NCBI GenBank assembly: GCA_032622095.1
Contig: CP136064.1
Location: 276,293,614 to 276,357,613, forward strand
Reading direction: 5' to 3'
DNA length: 64,000 nucleotides
Source: Siphonodentalium dalli
Lineage: Eukaryota; Mollusca; Scaphopoda; Gadilida; Siphonodentaliidae
Below are positions 7,018-46,720 of this stretch, in pieces (within the stretch, counting starts at the first letter, position 1; each line of letters opens with the position of its first letter). The translations under genes and the position numbers were made by a program. Below the pieces are notes generated by a model. That model had not been told where the DNA came from and made no database searches. It saw only the letters and a list, made by a program, of their open reading frames with translations.

Positions 7018-7026
7018 GATCTCAAT
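7018..7026. repeat. Target-site duplication, left (GATCTCAAT)
   Basis: The 9-bp word GATCTCAAT directly abuts the left end of the foldback element and recurs exactly at 9906-9914 at its right end. Confidence 0.9.
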
Positions 7027-7081
7027 GGGTCCTACTAAAACCCGACCGCACCCGACCGCACCCGACCGCACCCGACCACAC

Positions 7082-9064
7082 CCGACCGGACCGCCCCCAG
7101 GGGTCCGAGCGAGATGGGGTTTGCACTAACGTGTAGAATGGACCCGATTGTACCAAAGTTCCAATCCCCAAGTCGATAGCTCGAGCGGTCACGGCACTGT
7201 TAACCCCTGACTGGCGGCCGTTTCCGCCAGGTACAGGAAATCCAAAAAGGCGCCGACCGCACCTCCCCTGACTGCCTGAACACGGAAATGGACATTATAT
7301 CATGAAGTGAATGCCCATATGCATCCATGGGCGATCGGACAAGTCGCTAGCTGCAGCGGAAGTGAATAAATTAACCCATACGCTGCTGCCGAATTCGCTA
7401 TAAATGTACGCAAAAACGCCGAAATTAACACCCGCCGACCGGACCGCCCCTATGGGACCGAGCGAGATGGGGTTTGCACTAACGTGTAGAATGGAACCGA
7501 ATGTACCAAAGTTCCAATCCCCAAGTCGATAGCTCGAGCGGTCACGGCACTGTTAACCCCTGACTGGCGGCCGTTTCCGCCAGGTACTGGAAATCCAAAA
7601 AGGCGCCGACCGCACCTCCCCTGACTGCCTGACCACGGAAATGGACATTATATCATGAAGTGAATGCCCATATGCATCCATGGGCGATCGGACAAGTCGC
7701 TAGCTGCAGCGGAAGTGAATAAATTAACCCATACGCTGCTGCCGAATTCGCTATAAATGTACGCAAAAACGCCGAAATTAACACCCGCCGACCGGACCGC
7801 CGCTAGGGGACCGAGCGAGATGGGGTTTGCAATAACGTGTAGAATGGACCCGAATGTACCAAAGTTCCAATCCCCAAGTCGATAGCTCGAGCGGTCACGG
7901 CACTGTTAACCCCTGACTGGCGGCCGTTTCCGCCAGGTACAGGAAATCCGAAAAGGCGCCGACCGCACCTCCCCTGACTGCCTGACCACGGAAATTGACA
8001 TTATATCACGAAGAGAATACCCATATGCATACATGGGCGATCGGACAAGTCGCTAGCTGCAGCGGAAGTGAATAAATTAACCCATACGCTGCTGCCGAAT
8101 TCGCTATAAATGTACGCAAAAACGCCGAAATTAACACTCGCCGACCGGACCGCCCCTATGGGACCGAGCGAGATGGGGTTTGCACTAACGTGTAGAATGG
8201 AACCGAATGTACCAAAGTTCCAATCCCCAAGTTGATAGCTCGAGCGGTCACGGCACTGTTAACCCCCGACTGGCGGCCGTTTCCGCCAGGTACAGGAAAT
8301 CCGAAAAGGCGCCGACCGCACCTCCCCTGACTGCCTGACCACGGAAATTGACATTATATCATGACGTGAATACCCATATGCATACATGGGCGATCGGACA
8401 AGTCGCTAGCTGCAGCGGAAGTGAATACATTAACCCATACGCTGCTGCCGAATTCGCTATAAATGTACGCAAAAACGCCGAAATTAACACCCGCCGACCG
8501 GACCGCCCCTAGGGATCCGAGCGAGATGGGGTTTACACTAACGTGTAGAATGGACCCGAATGTACCAAAGTTCCAATCCCCAAGTCGATAGCTCGAGCGG
8601 TCACGGCACTGTTAACCCCTGACTGGCGGCCGTTTCCGCCAGGCACGGGAAATCCAAAAAGGCACCGACCCCACCTCCCCTGACTGCCTGACCACGGAAA
8701 TGGACATTATATAATGAAGTGAATGCCCATATGCATACATGGGCGATCGGACAAGTCGCTAGCTGCAGCGGAAGTGAATAAATTAACCCATACGCTGCTG
8801 CCGAATTCGCTATAAATGTACGCAAAAACGCCGAAATTAACACCCGCCGACCGGACCGCCCCTAGGGGACCGAGCGAGATGGGGTTTGCACTAACGTGTA
8901 GAATGGACCCGAATGTACCAAAGTTCCGATCCCCAAGTCGATAGCTCGAGCGGTCACGGCACTGTTAACCCCTGACTGGCGGCCGTTTCCGCCAGGTACA
9001 GGAAATCCGAAAAGGCGCCGACCGCACCTCCCCTGACTGCCTGACCACGGAAATTGACATTATC
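7082..9064 (+). repeat. Left arm: 353-bp tandem array, five full units plus 218 bp
   Basis: Units start with CCGACCGGACCGCC and include GAGCGAGATGGGGTTTGCAC, a GGCGG/CCGCC mini-hairpin, GCTAGCTGCAGCGG and GCCGAATTCGCTATAAATG. Differences between units are scattered point changes with no indels, so the period stays at exactly 353 bp. Confidence 0.95.
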
Positions 9065-9851
9065 GGAACTTTGGTACATTCGGGTCCATTCTACACGTTA
9101 GTGCAAACCCCATCTCGCTCGGTCCCCTAGGGGCGGTCCGGTCGGCGGGTGTTAATTTCGGCGTTTTTGCGTACATTTATAGCGAATTCGGCAGCAGCGT
9201 ATGGGTTAATTTATTCACTTCCGCTGCAGCTAGCGACTTGTCCGATCGCCCATGTATGCATATGGGCATTCACTTCATTATATAATGTCCATTTCCGTGG
9301 CCAGGCAGTCAGGGGATGTGCGGTCGGCGCCTTTTCGGATTTCCTGTACCTGGCGGAAACGGCCGCCAGTCAGGGGTTAACAGTGCCGTGACCGCTCGAG
9401 CTATCGACTTGGGGATTGGAACTTTGGTATATTCGGTTCCATTCTACACGTTAGTGCAAACCCCATCTCGCTCGGTCCCATAGGGGCGGTGCGGTCGGCG
9501 GGTGTTAATTTCGGCGTTTTTGCGTACATTTATAGCGAATTCGGCAGCAGCGTATGGGTTAATTTATTCACTTCCGCTGCAGCTAGCGACTTGTCCGATC
9601 GCCCATGGATGCATATGGGCATTCACTTCATGATATAATGTCCATTTCCGTGGTCAGGCAGTCAGGGGAGGTGCGGTCGGCGCCTTTTTGGATTTCCTGT
9701 ACCTGGCGGAAACGGCCGCCAGTCAGGGGTTAACAGTGCCGTGACCGCTCGAGCTATCGACTTGGGGATTGGAACTTTGGTACAATCGGGTCCATTCTAC
9801 ACGTTAGTGCAAACCCCATCTCGCTCGGACCCCTGGGGGCGGTCCGGTCGG
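9065..9851 (-). repeat. Right arm: inverted 353-bp units, two full units plus about 80 bp
   Basis: Reverse complement of the left-arm units. The turn occurs abruptly after ACATTAT at 9064. The ORF at 9149-9391 and its mirror at 8601-8843 encode nearly the same 80 residues because both are the same repeat. They are not genes. Confidence 0.93.
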
Positions 9852-9905
9852 GTGCGGTCGCGTGCGGTCGGGTGCGGTCGGGTGCGGTCGGGTTTTAGTA
9901 GGACC

Positions 9906-9914
9906 GATCTCAAT
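9906..9914. repeat. Target-site duplication, right (GATCTCAAT)
   Basis: Exact 9-bp match to 7018-7026. Confidence 0.9.
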
Positions 9915-25500: not shown

Positions 25501-28500
25501 ACCAGGCGGTCGTCGTTGTCGTATTGGCGAGCCCGAGCGACGCCCGTGCAGCGCATGCGCAGACGAGATCTCGGAAACGGGTTGAGCTATCGACTTGAAA
25601 TTTGCTATGTGAATGTATCTTGCCCCGGATACGAATTTTATCGGGTCGCCGAGCCCGTGCGACGCCAGCTTCGCGCATGCGCAGACGAGATATCGGAAAC
25701 GGGTGGAGCTATCGACTTGAAATTTGGTATGTGAATGTATCTTGCCCCGGATACGAATTTTATCGGGTCGCAGACCCCGAGCGACGCCCGTGCAGCGCAT
25801 GCGCAGACGAGATCTCGGAAACGGGTGGAGCGATCGACTTGAAATTTGCTATGAATGTATCTTGCCCCGGATACGAATTTTATCGGGTCGCCGAGCCCGT
25901 GCGACGCCAGCTTCGCGCATGCGCAGACCAGATATCGGAAACGGGTAGAGCTATCGACTTGAAATTTGGTTTTTGAATAGCCCGGACAACGTCGGGCTGG
26001 GTAGAGCTATCGACTTTAAATTTGGGTTTTGAATAGCCCGGACAACGTCGGGCTCATCGGCTAGTCTAATATATATTTTGAGACTTCTGTTTGTTTGTTA
26101 GCTATGGCCGGTAAAACTACCGGACGGTTTTAACCCAAACTTGCCATCTAAGGGTAAAATCCAACGGGAATGGTCGTCGGACCGCTTTTGAGAAGCTCCG
26201 AGGCCCTCTTCTCCACTTACAGTCACCAAAATGACCGTCCTTGGCACTGTGGTGTTAATCGCGTTGATAGTTAAAGAGCGTTCGTATCCGCAGTGTCGTT
26301 GATAAAGGGCGTATGCGTGTAGTGTGATTATTATGTCTGGGGCCAGACGTGAGTGTGTCTGCATCCAGACATGAGCGTGTTGTGTGATTCTTATGTCTGT
26401 CCTCGTACTTAGCGGTTCCATGGAACGGGGGAGATTTTCATCGGGTAAATTTTTCCGCCAGAGGCGATCTTCACCTTGAAACGGGTACCCACAAACGTAA
26501 CTCTTTTAGGGACGGGTACAATCACGGGACGGGTACTATCATTTCTCTTAATTAAAAAGGCAGAATTAACTCAAATTAAATTAAAAAAATTAACGGTTTC
26601 GATACCTAGGGATAATTTTGTCGGGAGTGTTTTCGACGGGTCAAATCGTGAGTCATCGTGACCCTGACCTTCAAAATGGTAAATTCAAGGTCAAATCTGG
26701 TAAAGCGGACGGATTTCCACGAAATTTTATACCTAGGGCTACTTTTGTCCGTGGAGTGTTTTGGACAGGTCAAATCGTTACCCAGACCTTGACCTTCAAA
26801 ATTGTCAATTCAAGGTCCAAGCCCGGACGAATTCGAGTCACCTGCTAGTAGCATATATTCCTCAAGAAACCAGTTCCGTGAGATATTATTTTGCACCGGC
26901 TTGAGAAATATTCAAACTCCCAAGAAAACCTAATCTGCTATCAAACATTTCTATGATATACAGTATATGTAAAAAATAAACTCGCAATGCATTGATAGAT
27001 GATTCCTTCCTTCTATTTAAGTATGGTAGTAATACAAATATTCTTCGAATATTTTAAATATTGTACGTGAAACTGGCAGTATGTACGAACTCCTTATTAA
27101 ATACTAGTCTTAACAGGTTCTCGTACATTTATGAATTTGGGTTATCTCTCTTGAACTAGATTCGCCCATTGCCATTAGACATGTGTAACTATTATACATG
27201 GTTTAATGTCCGATATGTATGAATGTGACGTCCCAGACTAGATAATGTTACTTCAAACATTCTGTCGCTAACTATTTGTATTTTCATTTATAGCGGCGGT
27301 TGTTAGATCAAAGAACAGTCTATGCTATGATGACTACCCCGACCTGAGTGGCCTTCTCTGCTACAAGAACTGTCGATCGGGCTACGGTGGCGCTGGTCCT
27401 GTATGCTGGAGTAACTGCCCCGCAAACACAGTCGACATCGGCGCTGTATGCACCAAGAATACTTACAACAGAGGAGTCGGTACGACTCTACGATACTGTC
27501 CTAGCGGTAAAGAGAAAACCGGCCTGATCTGCTACCCAACGTGTCCAAGTGGCATGTCCGGTGTGGGGCCAGTCTGCTGGCAAAGCTGCCCATCAGATTA
27601 CCATGACGACGGAGCTTTGTGCAGAAGAGACGCTCATATATATGGCAGAAACACGGGCAGTTGTCCTTGGTACAATAAATGCGGATTGGGAAGCAACTGT
27701 GGTCGATCTTGCAATTCCGGTTACCGCAACGACGGATGTACGTGCAGAAGAGACGTCCATATATTCGCCAAAAGAACGCAAGGTCGAGGTGTTGGATCCG
27801 CTATGGTATGTGGGTCTAATGAGGAGCAGTCTGGATTGCTGTGCTACCCACGATGTCGATCTGGATATTACGGTGTATCGTTCCTGTGCTGGGCGTCATG
27901 CTCTGGTGCTACAACGGACACGGGCACCCAGTGTCAAAAGCAAACATACGGCAGAGGCATCGGTAAGGTAATAAACTGCTTCACTCCACCTAAATGTGGT
28001 AGTTTAGGCGGTTGCGGTCCACTTAAAAGCTCATTTTCCGGAATAAGTTCATTTACAGCTGCGGGGTGTGATGTTCTATACCAGCGAATGAGGCCAAAGC
28101 TGGCGCTCGTACAAACTCTGGCTGGCTGCTTTAGAAACGAAGAGTGGAAAACTGTCACGATATCCTATTCTGCAGGAGCTGCCGTAGGAGTGTCTGGTGG
28201 AGCAGAAGTTGGAATTGGCCTCGACGCGAATACAAATAAAGGCGTATGTTACGTTGGTTACTGCTACGGATTCGTTACTGATGTGTCCATAGGCGCTGAA
28301 ATTAATTTCGGATTTTGGAAGTCTCTGGACTCTATACCAGGAGAATCGCAGATGAGGGAGTACGGAATCGATATTCCCTTTACTGAAATAGGGTTTACTG
28401 TGGGTGTCGTTTACTCGAGCCCTGGTAACGACTTCATCGGTATCGTCTTCAGTATTGGCTTCGGTGTGGGTCTTTCGCCGATAGACATCGGTAGCTATAA

Positions 28501-43172: not shown

Positions 43173-46100
43173 ACTGGCCGATGAGCCCGACGTTGTCCGG
43201 GCTATTTAAAAATCAAATTTCAAGTCGATAGCTCTACCCATTTCCGAGATCTGGTCTGCGCATGCGCAAAGCTGGCGTCGCACGGGCTCTGCGACCCGAT
43301 AAAATTCGTATCCGGGGCAAGATACATTCACATACCAAATTTCAAGTCGATAGCTCCACCCGTTTCCGAGATATCGTCTGCGCATGCGCGAAGCTGGCGT
43401 CGCACGGGCTCGGCGACCCGATAAAATTCGTATTCGGGGCAAGATACACTCATACCAAATTTCAAGTCGATAGCTCCACCCGTTTCCGAGATCTCGTCTG
43501 CGCATGCGCGAAGCTGGCGTCGCACGGGCTCGGCGACCCAATAAAATTCGTATTCGGGGCAAGATACATTAACATACCAAATTTCAAGTCGACAGCTCCA
43601 CCCGTTTCCGAGACCTCGTCTGCTCTTGCGCGAAGCTGGCGTCGCACGGGCTCGGCGACCCGATAAAATTCGTATTCGGGGCAAGATACATTCACATAGC
43701 AAATTTCAAGTCGATAGATCCACCCGTTTCCGAGATCTCGTCTGCGCATGCGCTGCACGGGCCTAGCACGGGCTCGCCAATACGACAACGACCACCGCCT
43801 GATCAAACTACACACACGTACCAAGTTTCGTCCCGATCGGTCGAGAATCGTAGATTTGTATTAATGACAAACAAACATACAAACAAACATACAGACAGAG
43901 GTCTTCAAAATATATACGAGACTAGCCGATGAGCCCGACGTTGTCCGGGCTATTCAAAAACCAATTTATTTTGTCCGGGCTATTCAAAAACCAATTTTTT
44001 TTGTCCGGGCTATTCAAAAACCAAATTTCAAGCCGATAGCTCTACCCGTTTCCGAGATCTGGTCTGCGCATGCGCGAAGCTGGCGTCGCACGGGTTCGGC
44101 GACCCGATACAATTCGTATCCGGGGCAAGATACATTCACATACCAAATTTCAAGTCGATAGCTCCACCCGTTTCCGATATCTCGTCTGCGCATGCGCGAA
44201 GCTGGCGCCGCACGGGCTCGCCAATACGACAACGTTCACCGCCTGGTCAAACTACACACACGTACCAAGTTTCGTCCCGATCGGTCGAGAATCGTAGATT
44301 TGTATAAATGACAGGCAGACAGACAAACAAACAAACAAACAAACAAACATACATACAGACAGAGGTCTTCAAAATATATATGAGATGATTAATTAATGGA
44401 TGAACAAATGCACAAAACGTAAAGTATAAAGTCTTGTTTTTTCTTGCATAATGGATGAACAAATGCACAAAACGTAAAGTATAAAGTCTTGTTTTTTCTT
44501 GCATGTATCGAGGGCTGCCGGTGAATGATGACGGCACAATTTCGTTATTATTGACCAGATTTTAGTGGATGAATGTTAGTGAAGATATGCTTGTGATTAA
44601 TACATTTCAACCCTTTTCCGAGATGTGGAACTCCAATGGTAATCAAGAAATCAGAAAAGATTGGCGTCGCACGGGCTCGGCGACCCGATACAATTCGTAA
44701 CCGGGACAAGATACATTCACATAGCAAATTTCAAGTCGATAGCTACACCCGTTTCCGAGATCTCGTCTGCGCATGCGCGAAGCGGCGCCGCACGGGCTCG
44801 CCAATACGACAACGTCGACCGCCTGGTCAAACTACACACACGTACCAAGTTTCGTCCCGATCGGTCGAGAATCGTAGATTTGTATTAATGACAAACAAAC
44901 ATACAGACAGACAAACATACAGAGGTCTTCAAAATATATATGAGACTAGCCGATGAGCCCGACGTTGTCCGGGCTATTCAAAAACAAAATTTCAAGTCGA
45001 TAGCTCCACCCGTTTCCGAGATCTGGTCTGCGCATGCACGAAGCAGTCGTCGCACGGGCTCGGCGACCCGATATAATTCGTATCCGGTGCAAGATACATT
45101 CACATAGCAAATTTCAAGTCGATAGCTCCACCCGTTTCCGAGATCTCGTCTGCGCATGCACGAAGCAGTCGTCGCACGGGCTCGGCGACCCGATATAATT
45201 CGTATCCGGTGCAAGATACATTCACATAGCAAATTTCAAGTCGATAACTCAACCCGTTTCCGAGATCTCGTCTGCACATGCGCGAAGCGGGCGCGAAGCG
45301 GGCGCCGCACGGGCTCGCCAATACGACAACGACGACCGCTTGGTCAAACTACACACACGTACCAAGTTTCGTCCCGATCGGTCGAGAATCGTAGATTTGT
45401 ATAAATGACATACATACATACAGACAGACAGACAGACATACAGACAGAGGTCTTCAAAATATATATGAGACTAGCTGATGAGCCCGACGTTGTCCCGGCT
45501 ATTCAAAAACCAAATTTCTAGTCGATAGCTCTACCCAGCCCGACGTTGTCCGGGCTATTCAAAAACCAAATTTCACGTCGATAGCTCTACCCGTTTCCGA
45601 GATCTGGTCTGCGCATGCGCGAAGCTGGTGTCGCACGGGCTCGGAGACCCGATAAAATTCGTATCCGGGGCAAGATACATTCACATACCAAATTTCAAGT
45701 CGATATTTCAAGCCGATAGCTCCATCCGTTTCCGAGATCTGGTCTGCGCATGAGCCCGACGTTGTCCGGGCTATTCAAAAACAAAATTTCACGTCGATAG
45801 CTCTACCCGTTTCCGAGATCTGGTCTGCGCATGCGCGAAGCTGGCGTGGCACCGGCTCGGTGTCCCGATAAAATTCGTATCCGGGGCAAGATACATTCAC
45901 ATAGCAAATTTCAAGTCGATAGCTCCACCCGTGTCAGAGATCTCGTCTGCACATGCGCGAAGGGGCGCCGCACGGGCTCGCCAATACGACAACGACGACC
46001 GCCTGGTCAAACTACACACACGTACCAAGTTTCGTCCCGATCGGTCGAGAATCGTAGATTTGTATAAATGACATACAGACAGACAGACAGACAGAGGTCT

Positions 46101-46720
46101 TCAAAATATATATGAGACTAGCTGATGAGCCCGACGTTGTCCCGGCTATTCAAAAACAAAATTTCTAGTCGATAGCTCTACCCAGCCCGACGTTGTCCGG
46201 GCTATTCAAAAACCAAATTTCACGTCGATAGCTCTACCCGTTTCCGCGATCTGGTTTGCGCATGCGCGAATCTGGTGTCGCACGGGCTCGGCGACCCGAT
46301 AAAATTCGTATCCGGGGCAAGATCATTCACATACCAAATTTCATGTTGATATTTCAAGCCGATAGCTCCACCCGTTTCCGAGATCTCGTCGGTCATGCGC
46401 GAAGCTGGCGTCGCACGGGCTCGGTGACCAGATAAAATTCGTATTCGGGGCAAGATACATTCACATAGCAAATTTCAAGTCGATAGCTCCACCCGTTTCC
46501 GAGATCTCGTCTGCGCATGCGCGAAGCTGGCGTCGCACGGGCTCGGTGACCCGATAAAATTCGTATTCGGGGCAAGATACATTCACATAGCAAATTTCAA
46601 GTCGATAGCTCCACCCGTTTCCGAGATCTCGTCTGCGCATGCGCTGCACGGGCGTCGCACGGGCTCGCCAATAAGACAACGACCACCGCCTGGTCAAACT
46701 GCACACACGTACCCCCGAAT
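43173..46720 (+). repeat. Head-to-tail array of family B composite repeats
   Basis: About six composite units starting (CTA)GCCGATGAGCCCGACGTTG (about 43175, 43925, 44950, 45476, 46121, one degraded). Each contains one to four ~120-bp repeats (CAAATTTCAAGTCGATAGCT, CCCGTTTCCGAGATCTCGTC TGCGCATGCGC, GATAAAATTCGTATCCGGGG CAAGATACATTCA). Most close with CCAAGTTTCGTCCCGATCGG, a CAGA/CAAA microsatellite and CTTCAAAATATATATGAGAC TAGC. The period near 120 bp keeps frames open on both strands, producing many false ORFs. Confidence 0.93.
44396..44505 (+). repeat. 55-bp exact tandem duplication
   Basis: ATGGATGAACAAATGCACAA AACG... occurs at 44396 and 44451 with no visible difference, implying a recent duplication between two family B units. 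Confidence 0.9.

Follow-up and report, generated by a model that had tools for sequence, protein, structure and literature searches.

Inverted arms built of short tandem repeats characterise the Foldback elements of Drosophila (FB4/NOF) and the TU elements of sea urchins, the latter with target-site duplications of 8 bp. Foldback members of the MULE superfamily, in which 8-11 bp of target are duplicated (PMC6446971), are also already known as such, and several described elements share features with the family reported here. Tm1, a Mutator/Foldback element of root-knot nematodes, is described as having tandem-repeat foldback arms and a MULE-type transposase, with repeat numbers unequal between its ends and terminal motifs that, for most copies, are unlike; in M. 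hapla, one copy whose two ends share a motif has no duplication (PMC3169594). Tetris of Drosophila virilis has arm units of ~220 bp, 8-10-bp duplications and arm units that seed satellite arrays, and the gain of a unit in one allele was attributed by the Tetris authors to unequal crossing-over (PMC4079207). The account of Muta1, an active MULE of Aedes aegypti, gives it subterminal tandem repeats, many non-autonomous derivatives and, in yeast, 8- or 9-bp duplications (PMC5225508), while Galileo is described with foldback-like arms of unequal tandem-repeat number and with chimeric copies that have no duplication (PMC3573991). Here, we describe an element in a 64,000-nucleotide stretch (the window; C4:276293614-276357613) of an assembly of the scaphopod Siphonodentalium dalli comprising 2,226,750,531 bases in 9 contigs. 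It is very probably a non-autonomous derivative, lacking a spacer, of a family of MULE-type foldback transposons.

The window element and its insertion site

The first-pass annotation of the window had proposed a foldback transposon with matching ends, decamers near the tips and five and a part units on the left against two and a part inverted units on the right; all of these were found (Table 1), and the proposal is borne out by inverted tips, tandem-repeat arms, a target duplication and empty sites. The two arms pair at 98% across 847 nt. Its description of the arms as 'exact 353-bp tandem repeats' holds for the period, which is exact with 0% indels, but not for the unit sequences, as full units of the left arm share 95.2-98.0% identity with one another. 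Between the two arms, the first unit is 99.7% identical, a match that forms no general pattern across elements. Judging from junction positions, one idea is that a centre without a spacer retains a loop of ~50 nt or more that stays unpaired. An Rfam scan of the window gave no match at gathering score. Elsewhere in the window, at 25528-26054 and 43214-46667, arrays of ~122-bp units lie in opposite orientations, bounded by TAGCCGATGAGCCCGACGTTGTCCGGGC-like and GACA-rich stretches; these are another repeat family.

Table 1. Coordinates of the window element, its empty sites and related elements; positions without a contig are those of the window
Feature	Position	Strand	Details
Foldback DNA transposon	7027-9906		
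Left target-site duplication copy, 8 bp	7019-7026	.	ATCTCAAT; from flanks and single copy in three empty-site paralogues
Right target-site duplication copy, 8 bp	9907-9914	.	ATCTCAAT; from flank comparison
Left tip (G-end)	7027-7043	+	G+GGTCCTACTAAAACCC; GGTCCTACTAAAACCC itself 7028-7043
Right tip (C-end, read inwards)	9890-9906	-	C+GGTCCTACTAAAACCC; inverted GGTCCTACTAAAACCC itself 9890-9905
Subterminal decamer array	7040-7092	+	ACCCGACCGC, 5.3 copies
Subterminal decamer array, inverted	9841-9893	-	5.3 copies
Left arm, 353-bp units	7082-9063	+	5.6 copies
Left-arm unit starts	7082, 7435, 7788, 8141, 8494	+	217-bp part at 8847
Right arm, inverted 353-bp units	9062-9851	-	2.2 copies; tandem array itself 9065-9851
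Right-arm makeup	9062-9145; 9146-9498; 9499-9851	-	84-bp part; two 353-bp units
Foldback centre	9062-9064		Left unit position 217 abuts right unit position 84, head to head, without spacer
Empty sites	C5:15.38 Mb; C4:276.13 Mb; C4:276.24 Mb		
L018, coding copy	C1:212680028-212689607		Arms 4.2 + 4.5 units, core 6.4 kb
37-kb element, second full-length transposase match	C1:113940954-113978191		37,238-bp tip pair
Sister element	C9:48927895-48944282		~180-bp units: 13.0 + 25.6 left, 17.2 right

Across the genome, the 16-base tip GGTCCTACTAAAACCC occurs at 557 exact sites, compared with 0 for a reversed-pattern control, and the base preceding it is G in 262, C in 286 and A or T in 9. Pairing was assessed for 184 of the 548 G- or C-preceded tips, up to C4:77 Mb (85 of 262 G-tips and 99 of 286 C-tips, among those listed), with the nine A- or T-preceded tips left out. 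Neighbouring tips <60 kb apart among these 184 gave 56 convergent pairs, spanning 481 to 41,713 bp, and nine pairs in other orientations; 112 tips were in pairs and 72 unpaired. Since exact sites number 557 against none in the control, and convergent pairs outnumber other orientations, the tip is not a product of chance. At one locus (L003, C1:40077426-40083755), two left tips lie ~2 kb apart with an identical 30-base flank, as if the left arm and its flank had been tandemly duplicated; the inner of the two was taken for pairing.

In the window, GATCTCAAT stands on both sides, at 7018-7026 and 9906-9914, and was read earlier as a 9-bp target duplication. The window duplication appears 9 bp long because the flank has, by coincidence, a G at 7018, the same as the element's terminal base at 9906; this copy alone cannot tell 8 from 9, and we read it as 8 bp because the family frame decides. 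That frame is N8-S/GGTCC...GGACC/S-N8, where S is G or C and has the same top-strand letter at both ends. Counting the window copy with the 56 pairs gives 57 elements, of which 41 have an exact 8-bp direct duplication, two (L002 and L058/059) have a 9-bp duplication outside the S base and 14, L018 included, have neither, an 8-bp repeat being visible but displaced in two of the 14 (L019 and L049). A duplication of 9 bp therefore fails as a family rule, though both lengths lie within the range of MULEs. Bases outside the duplication match in 11 of the 41, about the chance level. Read in the G-end orientation, the target is weakly palindromic (n = 41), with G at position 1 in 19, T at position 2 in 22, A at position 7 in 18 and C at position 8 in 21. 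Partial duplications, with mismatches mostly in the first four bases by the right (G) tip, were seen at L007, L015, L017, L035, L036, L041 and L048.

Three empty-site paralogues of the window copy each hold one copy of the target (GATCACAAT, GATCACAAT and GATCACTAT) and no element, with 93-94% identity across 237-240 of 240 joined flank bases. These refute, for the window copy, the reading that a satellite array or a segmental inverted duplication merely mimics a transposon. The arms are indeed satellite-like arrays, and one pair of tips in a sister family (L084/085, below) does resemble an inverted duplication, but the 557 exact tips, and the exact 8-bp duplications that 41 of the 57 elements show, also stand against such an origin, and we regard its probability as negligible.

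Coding copies, arms and cores

A transposase search gave at least 118 genome matches, two of them full-length at 99-100% identity and a partial one, of 223 residues, at 99%; six loci among these matches were cut out, and two neighbourhoods were enlarged. In L018, the OTU exon matches PF02338 at 39.1 bits (cut-off 23.3), and an exon scored against the MULE domain PF10551 reaches 27.3 bits (E 5e-6, 35 residues matched), just under the cut-off of 27.6; the long exon has no Pfam match. By eye, we recognised motifs that we take to be the catalytic D, D and E of the transposase. Spliced in silico at two GT/AG introns, the L018 frame begins at the arm junction and stays open to the final stop, with no in-frame ATG found in the first coding exon. 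The 37-kb element, the most complete copy among those examined, is flanked by an exact 8-bp duplication (GTAAATAG) and has arms of 28.5 and 30.1 units around a core of 16.4 kb, which is 98.2% identical to the L018 core over 5.3 kb and reaches 9.5 kb further upstream. It holds a single open frame, 1,127 or 1,129 residues long according to the acceptor chosen, that runs from the PHD acceptor to the stop across two GT/AG introns and contains PHD (PF00628, 32.0 bits, cut-off 24.0), OTU and MULE-type parts. As its exon continues upstream of OTU and encodes the PHD finger, the deletion in L018 cut the exon between PHD and OTU. A start exon was looked for upstream in the 37-kb element and not located, so the gene as read in both copies is incomplete at its 5' end. 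The autonomous MULE-type copy suggested as a check on the window element is thus matched by a coding element with the same tips. Between three coding copies of this family, dN/dS is 0.21-0.31, from few changes. No FLYWCH profile appeared at E<=1 in the exons scanned, which begin downstream of the gene's 5' end, and a search of viral contigs for relatives of the transposase gave 51 pattern-matching stretches, of which 0 were confirmed.

Galileo, with long arms and, in one subfamily, internal tandem repeats of ~210 bp as described, raises the alternative of a P-superfamily foldback (PMC3573991). The likeness is very probably structural only: Galileo has a P-type transposase and a 7-bp duplication, compared with 8 bp here, and in elements with GGTCCTACTAAAACCC tips the coding exons matched profiles of MULE type, with neither P nor THAP among the profiles at E<=1, making a P-type origin highly improbable. 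We prefer, with high confidence and as a joint explanation for the coding and window copies, a MULE-type foldback family whose copies insert as a unit with a target duplication. Under the mechanism we propose, a MULE-type protein would cut between the terminal base and the target (cut-and-paste) and would move window-type copies in trans, with the decamers, and perhaps the units, serving as extra binding sites. Unequal exchange would add or remove units; crossing-over between the inverted arms would flip the core and leave the tips, outside the crossover, unchanged; and transposition would need a G-end paired with a C-end. As the window copy is spacer-less and has no core, its descent from a coding element rests on its tips and units.

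Cores of the 46 fully read elements (45 and the window copy) form recurring classes. In a class of ~494 bp (seven elements), the inner junctions are fixed, and the arms, which vary in whole-unit steps, hold 1.3-6.4 units at one end and 1.4-6.5 at the other. The cores of L006, L010 and L038 are 99.0-99.4% identical (99.4% between L006 and L038), with arms of 3.3/2.4, 2.3/5.4 and 6.3/6.4 units, respectively. The 5' part of the 37-kb core was found in 12 elements, in L020 at 99.3% identity. It lies as in the 37-kb element relative to the G- and C-tips in five of these (L008, L009, L039, L040 and L046) and is flipped in seven (L003, L004, L014, L020, L037, L050 and L051). Both orientations also occur in a ~840-bp class, and all seven members of the ~494-bp class share one orientation, a 117-bp fragment of it being reversed in L028. 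Of 33 spacers >=100 bp, 16 did not map to the 37-kb core. In L008 (2793-3146), the spacer contains a 117-aa ORF with no Pfam match that, by eye, we take to resemble an SGNH-hydrolase-like fragment, possibly captured sequence.

For 247 full units from 45 elements, within-element class means were 94.9-95.6% identity, compared with 93.6% between elements. For 93 of 244 units, the closest unit belonged to the same element (chance 2.6%), for 141 to another element, and for 10 it was tied; with the nearest relative so often in another element, homogenisation within elements is partial. A comparison of full units within the 37-kb element (26 from the left arm, 27 from the right) showed an identical four-unit block three times in succession on the left, a less strict period of seven units on the right and two unit haplotypes common to both arms; order permutations reached the observed value in 4 of 20,000 (left) and 411 of 20,000 (right). 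L050 contains one identical and one nearly identical unit pair, each three apart, and a unit-by-unit comparison of L050 with L051 for a single-unit gain was not clean. Whole-unit differences, the repeated block and cores in both orientations indicate that the arms recombine. The block patterns fit best as marks of unequal exchange, although gap repair after excision could also lie behind them. The prediction that arms change in unit number was thus upheld, both by whole-unit differences between near-identical cores and by the arms of the 37-kb element.

Unlike ends in two families

As S is the same top-strand letter at either end, reading inwards gives unlike starts, GGGTCC at one end and CGGTCC at the other. 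All 56 convergent pairs, from the listed tips used, were mixed, with one G-tip and one C-tip (33 CG, 23 GC). Allowing one mismatch gave 1015 tip sites, of which 458 remain once the 557 exact sites are subtracted; spread across the other 16 positions, these changes average ~29 per position, compared with an A or T at the terminal base in 9 of 557; three alternative bases are counted at each inner position against two at the end, where swaps between G and C are invisible.

A second family extends this comparison. Several transposase matches were at 74-75% identity, and one of them, L025, led to a sister element with tip GGTGTGACTAATTAC, an 8-bp duplication AACAACAC and the frame N8-G/.../G-N8. 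Between the families, synonymous sites are saturated (pS about 0.83; pN about 0.17), and the ~180-bp sister unit has no detectable relation to the 353-bp unit beyond short matches. The two units have two conserved 9-mers in common (AGGGGTTAA and GGACCGCCC; shuffle mean 0.32, maximum 3), which is only suggestive of a common binding site. A second sister coding copy (L075), in a 10-kb stretch, has one ~180-bp array, with a 21-bp minisatellite on the other side. Sister tips were paired for 191 of 2084 G- or C-preceded sites (91 of 477 G and 100 of 1607 C, among those listed; 40 A- or T-preceded tips left out), and 59 of 61 convergent pairs were mixed, the remaining two being G/G. Flanks were read for ten pairs and the C9 element: an exact 8-bp duplication was found in seven, all mixed, and was absent from the two G/G and from two mixed pairs. 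At L084/085 (G/G), the flanks are near-exact reverse complements, as expected from an inverted duplication. The two mixed pairs without a duplication, L088/089 (C1:18.53 Mb) and L090/091 (C1:43.16 Mb), have flanks that are near reverse complements of each other's, and may represent a single locus that was duplicated to another part of the contig. Genome-wide, C-preceded sister tips number 1326 on the reverse strand and 281 on the forward strand, and a run at C2:216.61-216.75 Mb holds 14 same-strand, A- or T-preceded sister tips; run and strand bias perhaps reflect a satellite built from a foldback end.

These patterns admit two readings. The difference between G and C may be a founder accident at the edge of arm homology, with no rule of end pairing. 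Such a difference would persist, as crossing-over within the arms leaves the tips untouched, all copies of a young family derive from one founder and like-ended pairs available for examination number only two; we give this account close to an even chance. Against it, the sister family, at 74% protein identity and with synonymous sites saturated, has retained the difference too; there, both G/G pairs are without the 8-bp duplication and seven of nine mixed pairs examined have one, and the terminal base is A or T far less often than other positions are changed. The other reading, that the transposase can carry transposition to completion only if a G-end is paired with a C-end, is plausible, and we place it somewhat below even. 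V(D)J recombination, which pairs unlike signals, offers a likeness for such an unlike-ends rule. If true, the rule would give polarity to a near-palindromic element and would keep lone arms and inverted dimers immobile, without restricting block expansion of the arms or their flipping of the core. An end rule and target size common to both families, with differing arm units, suggests that architecture is conserved while arm sequence is replaced.

Comparison with described elements

A literature search confined largely to papers outside subscription turned up no foldback element described as having PHD together with OTU parts, no rule of ends unlike by one base and no arms approaching 30 units of 353 bp. 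Helentrons, too, are reported to contain OTU parts (PMC6431247), so OTU alone is no marker of lineage. The 9-bp duplication of Drosophila FB, invoked for the window element in the first-pass annotation, is unmatched by the 8 bp found in 41 of 57 elements.

As described, Tm1 has repeats of mostly 14 bp, 7-bp motifs, a 9-bp duplication and a Phantom/FLYWCH transposase (PMC3169594), the domains of the Phantom group being given as 'None or FLYWCH or SWIM' (PMC6446971). The family described here differs from Tm1 in its 353-bp units, 1-bp end difference, 8-bp duplication and PHD and OTU parts. The repeats of Muta1 are 12 bp, and the accessible text of its report makes no mention of units of hundreds of bases or of OTU (PMC5225508). 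For Tetris, its authors are described as having found no autonomous copy (PMC4079207), whereas here there is a coding 37-kb copy. Rehavkus has a PHD finger, as here, with a minisatellite before its 3' TIR and a duplication of 9 bp rather than 8, and MuDR-6_HM of Cnidaria has an ovarian-tumour (OTU) gene, also found here; by their description, both differ from the present family, in which PHD and OTU lie in one frame within foldback arms (PMC6446971). As a coding element, recent derivatives and empty sites are comparable inside a single chromosome-scale assembly, the family opens two questions to testing. One is the manner in which foldback arms expand, by whole units or blocks against ~1% of change in the core; the other is what keeps the ends of a near-perfect palindrome different.
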